Shown in pieces: positions 1,031 through 25,051 of a stretch of DNA of 26,303 bases. Location: the IMG/VR virus record IMGVR_UViG_3300044995_000049, positions 1-26,303 of that record, one strand, 5' to 3'. Positions within the stretch are counted from its first letter, which is position 1. Each line of letters begins with the position of its first letter. The translations under genes and the position numbers were made by a program. Source of the DNA: a virus. A model generated the notes under the pieces. That model searched no databases. It was not told where the DNA came from and saw nothing but the letters and a program-made list of their open reading frames with translations.

Positions 1031-3529
1031 TTAAAAAATCATATACTCATAAGAAAATTGCCATACAAAAGGGTCAGCCTCACCAAAAAATCTTATATTT
1101 AAAACGTCATCAGGAGCATTATCAGAAGTACCTACTATCTGTGGTTGAATAGAAAGATTATAACCATCAGAAGTAAATACATCTGTTTGATTCCAACTAA
1201 ATGAAGAACCATTCCAAAGAACGTGAACAAATATTAACTTGCATACAGAAACACTACTACTTTGACTTTGCACTTTACCATGAGCTGTTATTCTCAAAAA
1301 AGCAGAGCCTCTATTTCCTTGAACCATTTTAGTATGGTCAAATAACCTTACAGTAATATTCGTACTTGCAGGTACACGTACAGATTTTATTTTTCTCCTA
1401 TTTAAACCTATTATACCGTCCGAATTACTAATATATTGTTCAACAAAACCATCCATACCACCTAAAAAAGCAAAAAGTTCTGAATTTGTACTAGAACCAA
1501 CCTTAAATACAGCAACTTTGCTATCTATTGTTACAAAGTCGTTTTCAACAATTATACTAGAATAATCTGCGTCTTGGAACTTTATATTTAAGTAATTATC
1601 AGCAAAAGTAAGTGTTGTTTTTCCATTAGAAGATACTATCTTATTATCACTATTAATTACTAAATCTGGGTATAAGGATGTGTTAGGATTTATTTTAGCG
1701 ACCAAGTTATTATTCACATCATATTCCCACAAATCATTAATAAAAGTACCTATTTGAGCAAAAGTAATTTGTGTAGTTCCTAAAATAATTGGTGATACAT
1801 TTACAGCATAAACAAAATTTGCTTCTGTACCACCTTCCCTAACTCTATAAGTAGCGGCGAGTAATTTAGAAGAAGTATTTGAGTCGTCAGCACGCCTTAA
1901 AACCCATGAAGATGTTGGACTACCAACATCTTCTACAACATAACAACCGTTATTAACCCTATTTGCACCGACTTCATTTTTTACTAATATTCTATCACCT
2001 ACCTGTAGTGTTACACCATCAATAGCCGGTAATCCTACACCATTAGCATCAGTAAGAACTTGGTTTCCTCCTGATACAATATAGGGAGGTAAAGCAGTTG
2101 TAGTAGATACTCTAACAGAATGTTTCCAAGAAAGTCCTTGAGCAATACTATCTACATAGTCTTTAGTTGCAGCGTGTAATCCATTAATAGGAGGACCTAC
2201 TAAAGACAAATAACCTGTCATAGTATCTCCTGACTTATTAACTTTACTATTTATTTGTGTTTGTGCATTTGCTGATAAACCACTTATAAAAAGTAGCTCC
2301 GAAGTAGTAACACTACTACTAACTAATCGTTTTAAATTATCAAATACAGCCACCCTTTCAGCAGTTGCAGAATTAATATATAAATTACTAGTAGCTTGAC
2401 CGATAGATATATTGTTAGACCCCGTAGTACCTATATTTATAGCATTACTAGCAATTATATTTACGTTAGAACTTCCATTAGTACTAACAGTATTACCAAC
2501 TATACTTAATACTGTGGCAGTTATAGTAGTGTTTCTATCATTACGTCCTATTGATATATTACCATTATTAAATGTAGTGCCTATATTCAATGTTCCACCA
2601 TCAAATATAGCTGTACTATCATGTCTTACTTCAACTGTAGAACCTGTAAAATCAATACGTTTTGAAGAACCGTTATTTACGAGGAACTTACTAGAATTAA
2701 TAATAAAACCTGTTATCGTATTAAGATTGTATATAAAACTATTAGCAGAAGCAGTAAATGAACCTGTAGTAATATCAATAGCTACATTATGATTAATATT
2801 TAAAATAGTAGGGTTTAATCTAATACGTTTATTAGCGTCAGTTAAATAAAACTCTACTTCGTTACTTACTCTGAATAGCGTGTTAAAAGAAGTAGTTATC
2901 TGAACGTAATTGTCAGCATTAATAGCGATATTAGATGTGTGGTAAATATTAATACTACTAGGGCTAATATCAATAAGAGAGCCTCCTATATTATTTAAGC
3001 GAATATTATTTGTAGTAATCTTTAACCACGTTTCATTAGATGCTATACTACCTCCATTAGTAGAAACTACAAAACTCTCGTTACCTAAAGTACCAAAGTT
3101 TACTCTTATCTTATCAACGTCCCAAGAAGAAAGTGAACTACCTGAAACGACACGTATGCAAGAAGTATTGTTATCAATAGCAAGCAAACCATCTACAATA
3201 GTTGTGGTATTAGAAGCCACAGGTATATACCCAGCAGTTAAACCACTTCCGTTTACACTAATACCTTCTGCATCTTGCCAAGTACCGTCATCACGTAAAA
3301 ATTGTCCGGTAGGTACATCTTTTCTAATAAAAGAAATATCAACTTTACCATTATTATCAATAGACAAGTAACCATTAGGCTGGTTTCTGTGAGTTTGAAT
3401 ATTTAAGTAACTATCATTAAAATCGGATAAAAGAGGGCGTAAAATATTAGCAGTAATATATCTATTACCGTTGGATATAATACTTGTATTAATATCAGAT
3501 AATAACTGCGATTTATCTTTTTGCGACAT
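1031..3529 (-). CDS. Tail fibre / receptor-binding protein with KDYVD module
   Basis: This 832-aa protein is rich in Asn, Ser, Thr, Ile and Val, as expected for a beta-helical or beta-prism fibre. Residues 1-45 form an N-terminal module that also occurs in the other fibre protein of this window (INT at 13-15, NGxR at 20-23, D36, D39). A long repetitive middle follows with many short strands. Next come the common phage-fibre segments SGLSANAQTQINSKV and SGDTMTGYLSL, and then ATKDYVDSIAQGLSWK (about residue 450) opening a module of roughly 130 residues that includes GVTLQVGDRILVKNE. The C-terminal 200 residues have no recognised family and are the likely host-contact part. It is followed at once by the lysis genes. 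The fibre class is well supported; the receptor is unknown. Confidence 0.8.
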   Translation of the reverse strand: MSQKDKSQLLSDINTSIISNGNRYITANILRPLLSDFNDSYLNIQTHRNQPNGYLSIDNNGKVDISFIRKDVPTGQFLRDDGTWQDAEGISVNGSGLTAGYIPVASNTTTIVDGLLAIDNNTSCIRVVSGSSLSSWDVDKIRVNFGTLGNESFVVSTNGGSIASNETWLKITTNNIRLNNIGGSLIDISPSSINIYHTSNIAINADNYVQITTSFNTLFRVSNEVEFYLTDANKRIRLNPTILNINHNVAIDITTGSFTASANSFIYNLNTITGFIINSSKFLVNNGSSKRIDFTGSTVEVRHDSTAIFDGGTLNIGTTFNNGNISIGRNDRNTTITATVLSIVGNTVSTNGSSNVNIIASNAINIGTTGSNNISIGQATSNLYINSATAERVAVFDNLKRLVSSSVTTSELLFISGLSANAQTQINSKVNKSGDTMTGYLSLVGPPINGLHAATKDYVDSIAQGLSWKHSVRVSTTTALPPYIVSGGNQVLTDANGVGLPAIDGVTLQVGDRILVKNEVGANRVNNGCYVVEDVGSPTSSWVLRRADDSNTSSKLLAATYRVREGGTEANFVYAVNVSPIILGTTQITFAQIGTFINDLWEYDVNNNLVAKINPNTSLYPDLVINSDNKIVSSNGKTTLTFADNYLNIKFQDADYSSIIVENDFVTIDSKVAVFKVGSSTNSELFAFLGGMDGFVEQYISNSDGIIGLNRRKIKSVRVPASTNITVRLFDHTKMVQGNRGSAFLRITAHGKVQSQSSSVSVCKLIFVHVLWNGSSFSWNQTDVFTSDGYNLSIQPQIVGTSDNAPDDVLNIRFFGEADPFVWQFSYEYMIF

Positions 3530-14331: not shown

Positions 14332-16017
14332 TTACCAACTTTCATCATTTCGCAATTTACGATTAATTAATTGTTCTTCAAACATTGGGTTATAAATTTC
14401 TTCTTCAATTTCTTCTTGTGCTTCAAAATTAGTAGCTAAAAGCATCATACCAAGACTATCTACATAGTCGTCTAAAAAACCGTCTGATTTATGACAAACA
14501 ATATATGGTCCATCATAATATTTTAAACAGTTTTTCATCTGTTCCTCAAAACGTAAAAACTCTTCAGTTCTCCTCGTATTTCTATTGGCAGGTATAATTA
14601 ATCTTTTTTGTTGAATAAAATCAATAAGATTAAACCACATTTCAGATTTACTCTGTTTACTAAATGTAAATGGAGTTATATTTACAGTGTCACCAACTGC
14701 ATACATTAATCTATCTACTACTGCTTTACCAACACCTGTATAATCAGCACACAAATTAACGACATTTTTATTATATAACTCCTCAACAATTAATTGATGT
14801 TGCACCTCATAATCAACATTTCTAATTTCAGTCCAACCACAAATTTCAATTTTTGGAGGCTCTTCTTCATCATTTGGATTCCATACTACTTTACCGAATG
14901 TAAGTACTGTACTAGCGTCTTCTTTACCAATATCAAGTCCTGCAATAATAATGTCATCTTCCTCAATTCGTAATCCTTTTTTGTTATTACATAGTTTTTC
15001 AAATTCTTTATCTGTAATGAGCATACCACTTTCCAAATCCCACTCAAGAGCATAACTAAGGCGGAATGCTTTACTATCACGACCCCATCTTTCCATTTTT
15101 TTAGTAACATCTTTTTCATACTTCAAATGGAATGGATTTCTGTCTTTAAGAAATTGTTCTCTACGTGCTTTAAATATTTTTTTATAATCGTATTCGTAAT
15201 GGTATAAAATACGTGGGTCCTTACAGTACCTATTTTTGTTTTTATTATGTTGTATTTCGTACCAAAAGTTATTTTTTTGAGTTCCTGTTGTTCCACACTT
15301 TATTATAGTACCACCTGTAGCAGAAACCATTGGTTCAATACTCTTTTGAATAATATAATCGTCAATATCTTGAGCTTCCTCACAAATGATTAAATCATAC
15401 GTAGCAGATTCTATTTTAGACTGTTTACTAGCTACTTGTCCTGTTAAAGAACTACCATTAGTTAATTCATATCTTTTTGGAGAAGTTAAACTAATATCTA
15501 AATCAGGGTCTTCCATAACCATAGATGCGTTTTCAGAACTTATACGTAATAAAGCACGATTATAAGTATTCCATACCTGATCTGATTGAGGTGCAAATAA
15601 CCCTATACGAATACCATTTTTAAATTGTTCTAAGTCAGGTATTATTTTAGCAAGAGCCGGTAAAATAGTAGATAATGTATTAATTACAAAAGCTAACGTT
15701 TCAGATTTTCCTGACTGACGAGATAATAACATAGTAATTACTTCATTCTCAAAACTGATAACGTGATGTATGATTGCGTATGCCATCTCTTCCTGATAAG
15801 AATATAAAGGCATACCCGTAAGTATCTTACCAAATTCGACACATTTAGCTGTTACAAAATGTGTATCAAAACTAACCCCCTTTCGTAATTCTTCTTCTAA
15901 TAGTTTATCTAGGTCAATCTCTTTGATAGCTTCCTCAACGGACTTACCTTCCGACTCAAAAATACCCGTAGCATCAATCTTACGGACTTTACCTTGTCTT
16001 ACTGTTTTTTTACTCAT
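14332..16017 (-). CDS. terL: Terminase large subunit (TerL)
   Basis: This 561-aa protein is the DNA-packaging ATPase and nuclease. Walker A is at 99-105 (SRQSGKS) and Walker B at about 207-214 (YDLIICEE, catalytic E214). The coupling motif is at about 240-246 (KCGTTGT). The RNase H-like nuclease domain shows its acidic residues at D362 (GLDIGKED), D425 (LCADYTGVG) and the cluster D516/D517/D520 (DGFLDDYVD). All motifs expected for an active enzyme are present and the length is normal. The portal gene follows directly. A small terminase subunit was not recognised nearby; one of the small upstream genes could supply it. Confidence 0.93.
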   Translation of the reverse strand: MSKKTVRQGKVRKIDATGIFESEGKSVEEAIKEIDLDKLLEEELRKGVSFDTHFVTAKCVEFGKILTGMPLYSYQEEMAYAIIHHVISFENEVITMLLSRQSGKSETLAFVINTLSTILPALAKIIPDLEQFKNGIRIGLFAPQSDQVWNTYNRALLRISSENASMVMEDPDLDISLTSPKRYELTNGSSLTGQVASKQSKIESATYDLIICEEAQDIDDYIIQKSIEPMVSATGGTIIKCGTTGTQKNNFWYEIQHNKNKNRYCKDPRILYHYEYDYKKIFKARREQFLKDRNPFHLKYEKDVTKKMERWGRDSKAFRLSYALEWDLESGMLITDKEFEKLCNNKKGLRIEEDDIIIAGLDIGKEDASTVLTFGKVVWNPNDEEEPPKIEICGWTEIRNVDYEVQHQLIVEELYNKNVVNLCADYTGVGKAVVDRLMYAVGDTVNITPFTFSKQSKSEMWFNLIDFIQQKRLIIPANRNTRRTEEFLRFEEQMKNCLKYYDGPYIVCHKSDGFLDDYVDSLGMMLLATNFEAQEEIEEEIYNPMFEEQLINRKLRNDESW

Positions 16018-16978: not shown

Positions 16979-17010
16979 AAAAAAAGTGCAGCGTAGAAAA
17001 CTACGTGCAC
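16979..17010 (-). terminator. Intrinsic terminator in the leader of the structural operon
   Basis: On the minus strand a 10-bp GC-containing stem (GTGCACGTAG pairing with CTACG-C-TGCAC, one bulged base, TTTT loop) at 16986-17010 is followed by seven T (16979-16985). This is a textbook rho-independent terminator. It lies about 50-75 bases downstream of the predicted start of the promoter at 17066-17096 and 20 bases before the KTSC gene start, so readthrough would be needed to express the packaging genes from that promoter. Confidence 0.85.
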
Positions 17011-17043
17011 TCCAAAAACCAATTAAAACAACACAAAGCTGAA

Positions 17044-17064
17044 AAAAGCAACGAGTTTGCTTTT
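17044..17064 (-). terminator. Short hairpin with T-run after the HTH-like gene
   Basis: AAAAGCAA (17044-17051) pairs with TTGCTTTT (17057-17064) around a 5-base loop. On the minus strand the stem ends in a run of six T. It sits 11 bases past the stop codon at 17075 and can terminate the upstream operon. The predicted transcription start of the promoter at 17066-17096 falls inside it, so it should not form in transcripts from that promoter. Confidence 0.6.
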
Positions 17065-17065
17065 A

Positions 17066-17096
17066 CAAAGTTATCTATTTTTTCCAATAATACAAA
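17066..17096 (-). promoter_or_regulatory. Bacteroidota-type promoter for the packaging/structural operon
   Basis: On the minus strand TTTG (17093-17096) is followed by exactly 19 bases and then TAACTTTG (17066-17073). This matches the Bacteroidota TTTG-N19-TAnnTTTG consensus fully. The predicted start is near 17059, giving a leader of about 100 bases that contains the terminator at 16979-17010. The promoter overlaps the end of the upstream gene. Confidence 0.65.
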
Positions 17097-17356
17097 TTTT
17101 TACGTTCAATAACTACTTTTCTACCCACTTGAGGTAATCCTAAAACGTGTAAAACTTTATTAATGGCTATCATAGATTTACTAGAAGTTTTACTGTTAGA
17201 TAAAAAAGACTCTAATGATCTTGGTTTAATACCAAGCTCTTTCTCATACTTAACTGCAAAATCTCTAACACTAATCTTTAAGTTATGCTTTATGTGATTA
17301 CGTATAAAAGTAATTACCTCATTAATACTCATGTATTTAATATTCTCCTTTTTCAT
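17075..17356 (-). CDS. Putative helix-turn-helix regulator upstream of the structural operon
   Basis: This 93-aa protein is helical and basic. About residues 26-75 (LKISVRDFAVKYEKELGIKP, then SLESFLSNSK, then MIAINKVLHVLGLP) look like a small HTH-type DNA-binding domain with a final LGL turn, as in XRE/Cro-like proteins. The C-terminus is basic and aromatic (ERKNLYYWKK). The ATG at 17356 overlaps the preceding gene by 20 bases; a second ATG at 17332 starts just after that gene's stop and could be the true start. It is encoded directly before the promoter and leader terminator of the structural operon, so a role in early-to-late control is a reasonable inference. It ends in TAG. Confidence 0.55.
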   Translation of the reverse strand: MKKENIKYMSINEVITFIRNHIKHNLKISVRDFAVKYEKELGIKPRSLESFLSNSKTSSKSMIAINKVLHVLGLPQVGRKVVIERKNLYYWKK

Positions 17357-24331: not shown

Positions 24332-25051
24332 TTAAAAGTTAGTAAATAGTAATTCATTTATATAGCTGCGTTTGCATACAGCAGGAGTATTATTTAATTT
24401 CTCGGCTACTTTTTCACATACAGTTTTCACATTTTGCCTATATTGCTTTTTTGTTATTCCCTCCCACTCTAATTCGTTGTAAAAGTTATAAGCGTAAATG
24501 TTAGCACGTAGTGTTCTGAAATCTTTAGGGGTAAATGCTCTACCAACATAGCGTTTAATAAACTTCGTTAGCTGGTAGTCAGTAATTCCGAAAACTTTTT
24601 CATCACAGTTATTTAATATACTAACTACATACTTATTTAATTTATCTGGTACTTTGTAGCTATTCTCAACTTGCTTTTTACCTAGAAAATTAAATGTTAC
24701 TTTACCATTTTTTACTATTACGTGTCGCCTCTCAATAGTAGTTAGCCCGTACGTTTTAACGAATTTAACTTCTTGATTTTTAGCAAATGGGTGCGGTTTG
24801 GTATAATAGCCTTCTGCACTACTCTCGTTACCAACACGTATACCTGTTTCCATTAGTAGTAAGGTTGCAACAGCACACCTAAAATTCTCAGTATTGGAAT
24901 TTTTACCTCGCTCCGCCATGTTCAGTAACTTATCATATAAACTATTATACATAGAAGCTAATTTGTTCACCCGGTTATGTTTGTTTTTATTGCTACCTCT
25001 GACCTTACCATAAAAGGTAACTACTTGTTTACCTATTTTAAACTTTTCCAT
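24332..25051 (-). CDS. DNA topoisomerase IB
   Basis: This 239-aa protein is a type IB topoisomerase of the poxvirus/bacterial class, which relaxes supercoils through a tyrosine 3'-phosphate link. The active-site set is visible: R72 in ETGIRVGNE, K125 in NFLGKKQ, R179 in TPKDFRTLRAN and nucleophile Y230 in VCKRSYI. The segment LNNTPAV has Asn where many relatives have the catalytic His, a known variation in bacterial forms. The N-terminal part (about 1-60) is short compared with poxvirus enzymes. All catalytic residues are present, so it should be active. In a phage it would relieve torsion during replication or transcription. It is the second gene after the promoter at 25407-25437. Confidence 0.88.
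   Translation of the reverse strand: MEKFKIGKQVVTFYGKVRGSNKNKHNRVNKLASMYNSLYDKLLNMAERGKNSNTENFRCAVATLLLMETGIRVGNESSAEGYYTKPHPFAKNQEVKFVKTYGLTTIERRHVIVKNGKVTFNFLGKKQVENSYKVPDKLNKYVVSILNNCDEKVFGITDYQLTKFIKRYVGRAFTPKDFRTLRANIYAYNFYNELEWEGITKKQYRQNVKTVCEKVAEKLNNTPAVCKRSYINELLFTNF

Follow-up and report, generated by a model that had tools for sequence, protein, structure and literature searches.

A putative operon-boundary element, with terminator and promoter side by side, ahead of the packaging genes in a group of Bacteroidota phages

How does a phage keep the transcription of its packaging and structural genes apart from that of the genes upstream? This question is raised by one junction in a virus record of 26.3 kb (IMGVR_UViG_3300044995_000049, 26,303 nucleotides), the whole of which is called the window here and in which all identified genes lie on the minus strand. 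The junction is located between a gene for a 93-aa protein (17356-17075) and a KTSC-domain gene (16959-16663; Pfam PF13619, E 2e-20), and past it the gene order runs from the KTSC gene through a DUF6496 ORF to terminase (large subunit at 14332..16017, minus strand; PHROG 2, E 6e-20), portal and major capsid. The KTSC gene precedes the terminase gene in related phages too (synteny). An earlier note on this DNA had proposed a promoter followed by a leader terminator, acting as an antitermination or attenuation switch. In the literature searched, in which subscription journals are incompletely covered, we found neither an experimental account of how structural operons are controlled in these phages nor a description of this junction. 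We consider it somewhat probable, at roughly 55%, that the junction is a conserved operon-boundary element, at which a terminator blocks read-through from upstream and an adjacent host-type sigma-A promoter starts the structural transcript.

In Bacteroidota sigma-A promoters, a spacer of about 19 bp separates a -33 TTTG from a -7 TAnnTTTG. Exactly this combination is found on the minus strand at 17096-17066, where an exact-consensus TTTG (17093..17096) is followed after N19 by TAACTTTG (17066..17073), so that the full-consensus promoter which the earlier note had placed upstream of the packaging genes does exist as a sequence feature. The window contains 6 copies of the pattern TTTG-N17..21-TAnnTTTG, where 1.3 +/- 1.1 would be expected. 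In Flavobacterium psychrophilum, the sigma-A -7 box spans -12 to -5 (PMC9723704); applied to TAACTTTG, this spacing predicts a start at 17061, 2 bases away from the position near 17059 claimed previously. At +21..+28 from this start lies CAGCTTTG (17034..17041, minus strand), a 5/6 match to a -7 box, which is no more than suggestive; at the corresponding position, five other lineages have TATTTTTG.

Two hairpins lie downstream of the promoter box. The first, hp1 (AAAAGCAA-ACTCG-TTGCTTTT, 17064-17044, 8 bp), starts 1 nt past the -7 box and occupies, with its U run, 17042..17064 on the minus strand. It is weak (-5.3 kcal/mol), yet a stem of at least 7 bp with a T-rich end arises at this position in only 43 of 5000 local shuffles and is unlikely to be chance; a second hairpin over the start site, as had been described, is real in this sense, and by its position relative to the promoter it corresponds to the hairpin of related phages described below. 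The second, hp2 (GAGTGCACGTAG-TTTT-CTACG(C)TGCACTT, 17012-16984), has a stem of 11-12 bp with one bulged C and is directly followed by U7 at 16985-16979, as expected for an intrinsic terminator (16979..17012, minus strand). Its predicted stability of -15.1 kcal/mol is the strongest on the coding strand and was equalled by 1 of 300 local dinucleotide shuffles. A simple terminator scan missed it, probably because that scan permits no bulge. The terminator with seven T before the first gene, another element of the earlier description, thus stands, ending 19 nt before the ATG of the 16663-16959 gene. It lies 53 nt past the promoter box and, in this window alone, wholly within the promoter's own predicted transcript. 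GGTTTTTG, ahead of hp2, was considered as a decayed -7 box; it has neither the TA nor a -33 element and was treated as chance. Another terminator hairpin is present at 10642-10619, directly 3′ of the major capsid gene, and similar hairpins are found 3′ of the capsid gene in Bacteroides phage BS162P1 and in L015, a further relative; such post-capsid hairpins perhaps set capsid dose.

The stop codon of the 93-aa gene, the last upstream of the junction, is 2 nt before the -7 box, so that hp1 begins 10 nt and hp2, by coordinates, 62 nt past it. In E. coli, ribosomes repress terminators situated just past a stop codon, as for tR2 (PMC4824070). Because a ribosome would be expected to repress hp1 in this way, hp2 is the hairpin placed to end the upstream operon. 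Reading by eye, no frame beginning with ATG is seen between the promoter and the KTSC gene, in agreement with the previous claim that a leader peptide of this kind is absent; the sole leader frame of note has 16 codons and a TTG start.

Related phages were sought by scanning viral contigs for KTSC, terminase, portal and capsid genes, and some of those recovered are contig fragments. About eight lineages, this phage included, have KTSC just before terminase, and a search of genome_contigs for the same order found none. In five related lineages with terminases 57-59% identical ({L003, L005, L008}, L004, L007, L010 or MT835482, and L011 or BS162P1), the -7 box at the KTSC junction directly adjoins a terminator hairpin and T-rich tract, as in TATATTTG-C-GGGGAACATCTTATAGGTGTTCCCC-TATTTTTG of L007 and TATATTTG-C-AGGTGAACATCGGTAAAACGGTGTTCACC-TATTTTTG of BS162P1. 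TTTG is present at the usual -33 distance in four of the five, MT835482 being the one without it, and the predicted start falls within the 5′ arm of the hairpin. The hairpin begins 35-87 nt past the upstream stop codon, with L005, a cut contig, excluded. A sixth lineage, L015, retains the hairpin and U tract with a box degraded to TAAATTAG, so that the hairpin is kept there without the promoter. L012, although similarly close, lacks the element ahead of KTSC and has only a terminator before terminase, which counts against the operon-boundary reading. There (L012:6250-6300), a U7 terminator directly ahead of terminase is followed by a TATATTTA box, which gives a terminator-then-promoter order at the same operon start.

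The relatives' hairpin also has compensatory changes. Since MAFFT misaligned the hairpins, we aligned the arms manually and with knowledge of the structure, which is a caveat on the covariation; in this alignment, 96.6% of pairs are standard and double changes occur at 5 of 10 pairs, and the covariation score was reached by 0 of 500 shuffles, with every slid version scoring lower. When full promoters and sense terminators were listed for BS162P1 (88.9 kb) and MT835482 (72.7 kb), only the KTSC-junction promoter adjoined a terminator, which makes the abutting arrangement specific to the point where the packaging operon begins. The comparison of related genomes proposed as a check by the earlier note accordingly finds the promoter-terminator pair at the same junction, unlike the other promoters of those genomes. 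Elsewhere in BS162P1, several terminators sit just upstream of promoters. The -7-like TATTTTTG follows the KTSC-junction hairpin in five lineages and just 3 other terminators among 52 examined, and may serve as U tract, as another -7 box or as a sigma pause element. With a degenerate DNA pattern built on the element of the relatives, two contigs were matched, both already known, and a looser pattern yielded no further -33/-7 promoter with hairpin in this gene context, L114 having the box and hairpin alone.

Some other features of these genomes were observed along the way. In BS162P1, one and the same promoter sequence (gtttggttatcttatataaagtaacTATATTTG) occurs twice at a distance of 2.5 kb (L030:784-816 and 3338-3370). 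The terminase matches of MT835482 (L010:11001-13631) and BS162P1 (L011:9001-11637) are interrupted by roughly 1 kb of additional sequence, which in BS162P1 lies within one annotated 2.7-kb CDS and is possibly an intein or in-frame insert. The window encodes the catalytic core of a eukaryotic-type topoisomerase IB at 24332-25051 (Pfam 2e-17), whose homologue in BS162P1 is upstream of the KTSC junction there as well.

As an operon boundary, the junction would combine two functions: the intrinsic terminator would halt transcripts entering from the upstream genes, and the sigma-A promoter beside it would begin a new transcript for the packaging and structural genes. Promoter activity, start site, termination and read-through are here predicted from sequence features, their conservation and compensatory changes. 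In the relatives, only read-through RNA would carry the whole terminator and stop, whereas promoter-born RNA would carry a shortened, weaker stem. With a start 5 nt past the box, folding takes the relatives' hairpins from -13..-19 to -5..-12 kcal/mol, with 3-4 bp of the stem base lost and 2-5 nt left unpaired before the U tract, although an error of 2-3 nt in the predicted start would alter the amount of stem lost. Since the stem is weakened and a gap opens before the U tract, RNA from this promoter should largely escape termination. The residual stem of BS162P1 (-11.6 kcal/mol) might still terminate, which counts against such escape. In the window, the fused hairpin is weak and transcripts from the promoter would meet the full hp2 about 50 nt past their start; partial termination, giving an RNA of about 80 nt, and some read-through into KTSC and terminase are both inferred. 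Since hp2 is part of the promoter's transcripts, expression of KTSC from this promoter would demand a degree of read-through. A pure insulator would not seem to need a strong terminator past the whole promoter, and this arrangement in the window counts against the operon-boundary reading.

A more specific mechanism, which we regard as a tentative proposal and rather improbable as a whole, is a terminator gated by the start site. The hairpin would lie between two -7 boxes with the start in its 5′ arm, so that RNA from upstream stops and promoter-born RNA without the stem base escapes, perhaps after pausing at the second box in a sigma-dependent manner; the phage of the window would then represent a derived form that needs active read-through, its parts having separated. 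If this gating is true, a single element of 60 nt keeps upstream and structural transcription apart in a lineage of Bacteroidota phages, its terminator distinguishing read-through from newly started RNA by start position. The element would also provide a ready insulated promoter for Bacteroides genetics.

The switch claimed by the earlier note fares unevenly against these data. The promoter-terminator pair at the same junction in relatives supports a control point that is specific, conserved and placed ahead of the packaging genes, but not antitermination or attenuation. Because the relatives' hairpin overlaps the predicted start, RNA from their own promoter would carry a broken terminator, which suits an insulator against read-through better. 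In this window a switch is possible, hp2 lying wholly in the predicted transcript of the promoter itself. Processive antitermination under phage control, with early firing, a stop at about +80 and late read-through through a phage factor (lambda Q- or AlpA-like) or a nascent put-like 5′ hairpin, is an unlikely but serious alternative. It agrees with the order of promoter, full terminator and structural genes in the window; moreover, other promoters in these phages share the host type of this one, so that timing would need another control. For Q and AlpA, the initially transcribed region must contain a pause element resembling a -10 box (PMC6606751, PMC9371919). Candidates for one exist in the window's CAGCTTTG (5/6) and in the relatives' TATTTTTG, which in five lineages makes up a second, perfect -7 box, about +18..+34 in RNA started at the promoter, but is also the U tract. 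However, the relatives have no full terminator downstream of the predicted start, and neither a lambda-Q-type protein, a NusG paralog nor above-chance boxA was found. The lambda-Q families PF03589 and PF06530 are absent from the window and 7 relative records, which is weak evidence since several records are fragments and these Pfam families are mostly enterobacterial. The NusG domain (PF02357) is absent from 7 relative records, with Bacteroides ihuae as a positive control, and the window was covered in part, by a Pfam scan of 10 proteins. Matches resembling boxA are at chance level (67 found, 70 expected), unlike what a lambda N/nut system would show. In BS162P1, a gene annotated as hypothetical (L031:26109-26525, BS162P1 75609-76025) matches sigma-70 region 2 and, weakly, region 4; it encodes a sigma factor of the phage's own, from which timing in BS162P1 might also derive.

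The promoter and hp2 may instead bound an independent gene for a small RNA, some 80 nt long (17061 to about 16979), KTSC and terminase being transcribed from elsewhere, for example from the TATATTTG box near 16655-16648; we find this improbable. A start signal with an intrinsic terminator is the usual mark of Bacteroides small RNAs (PMC7366714), and both are present here, with no ATG coding frame between them and a -7 box at +306 from the KTSC ATG. Relatives, however, do not have the interval between promoter and terminator, so that no such RNA is conserved, and there is no Rfam match at the gathering threshold, whether to a small RNA or to a riboswitch or known leader RNA.

Slightly less probable still is a DNA operator, formed by the inverted repeat over the start site, to which a repressor would bind, the 93-aa protein for example. 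The dyad does cover the predicted start in relatives, and the adjacent protein (17075..17356, minus strand) may have a lambda-repressor-like fold: its single-sequence AF2 model is helical (pLDDT 75.8), and Foldseek against the PDB gives lambda-repressor-like matches, none of them significant (best E 0.13). With no Pfam or PHROG match, its earlier description as HTH-like retains the helical model and the type of match in its favor and is otherwise weakly supported. It has no BLASTP similarity to the ORF upstream of the L003/L008 junction. The model of its overlapping 145-aa partner is too poor for use (pLDDT 51), and neither of these two proteins, the candidate regulators of the earlier note, has a detected counterpart at the relatives' junction. 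Moreover, the half-site spacing CATC..GGTG varies among relatives (5, 5, 6, 8 and 10 nt) with further pairs closing the loop, five lineages retain a U-G wobble and a T-rich tract is always next, all of which is RNA-like and not what an operator would show.

Least plausible is an RNA-folding attenuator, riboswitch- or leader-peptide-like, in the window's leader, which can pair with the hp2 5′ arm before the 3′ arm is made (-11.1 kcal/mol, transcript to the loop, hp1 included) but offers no strong competing fold, the best one without the terminator being 11 kcal/mol worse, and which lacks an Rfam match, is absent from relatives and has a TTG-initiated frame as its sole frame of note.

Several known systems resemble the proposed operon boundary in part. 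NusG paralogs of the UpxY and LoaP types carry out antitermination of long operons, UpxY in Bacteroides. They would share with this junction control at the level of the leader and, for UpxY, the Bacteroidota setting, whereas the relatives searched here contain no NusG-family protein. The lambdoid pR′-tR′ unit with Q and the Pseudomonas PalpB-tB unit with AlpA (PMC6606751, PMC9371919) likewise place a host-sigma promoter and then an intrinsic terminator before late or lysis genes, and their -10-like box in the initially transcribed region has a possible counterpart in the -7-like box of the relatives. They differ in that no Q/AlpA-type protein or binding element has been identified here, that the relatives' terminator overlaps the start itself and that the promoter is of the Bacteroidota type. 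The putRNA of HK022 (PMC9378689) is likewise a structure within phage RNA with the potential to influence elongating polymerase, sigma-dependent pausing maybe being involved, but put suppresses termination, whereas the single hairpin with U tract found here looks terminator-like. In Tn916, the T1 terminator with canT antitermination (PMC11658703) would similarly shield element genes from upstream read-through; T1 faces read-through from the host, while the terminator of these phages would face the phage's own upstream genes, with the promoter overlapping or preceding it.
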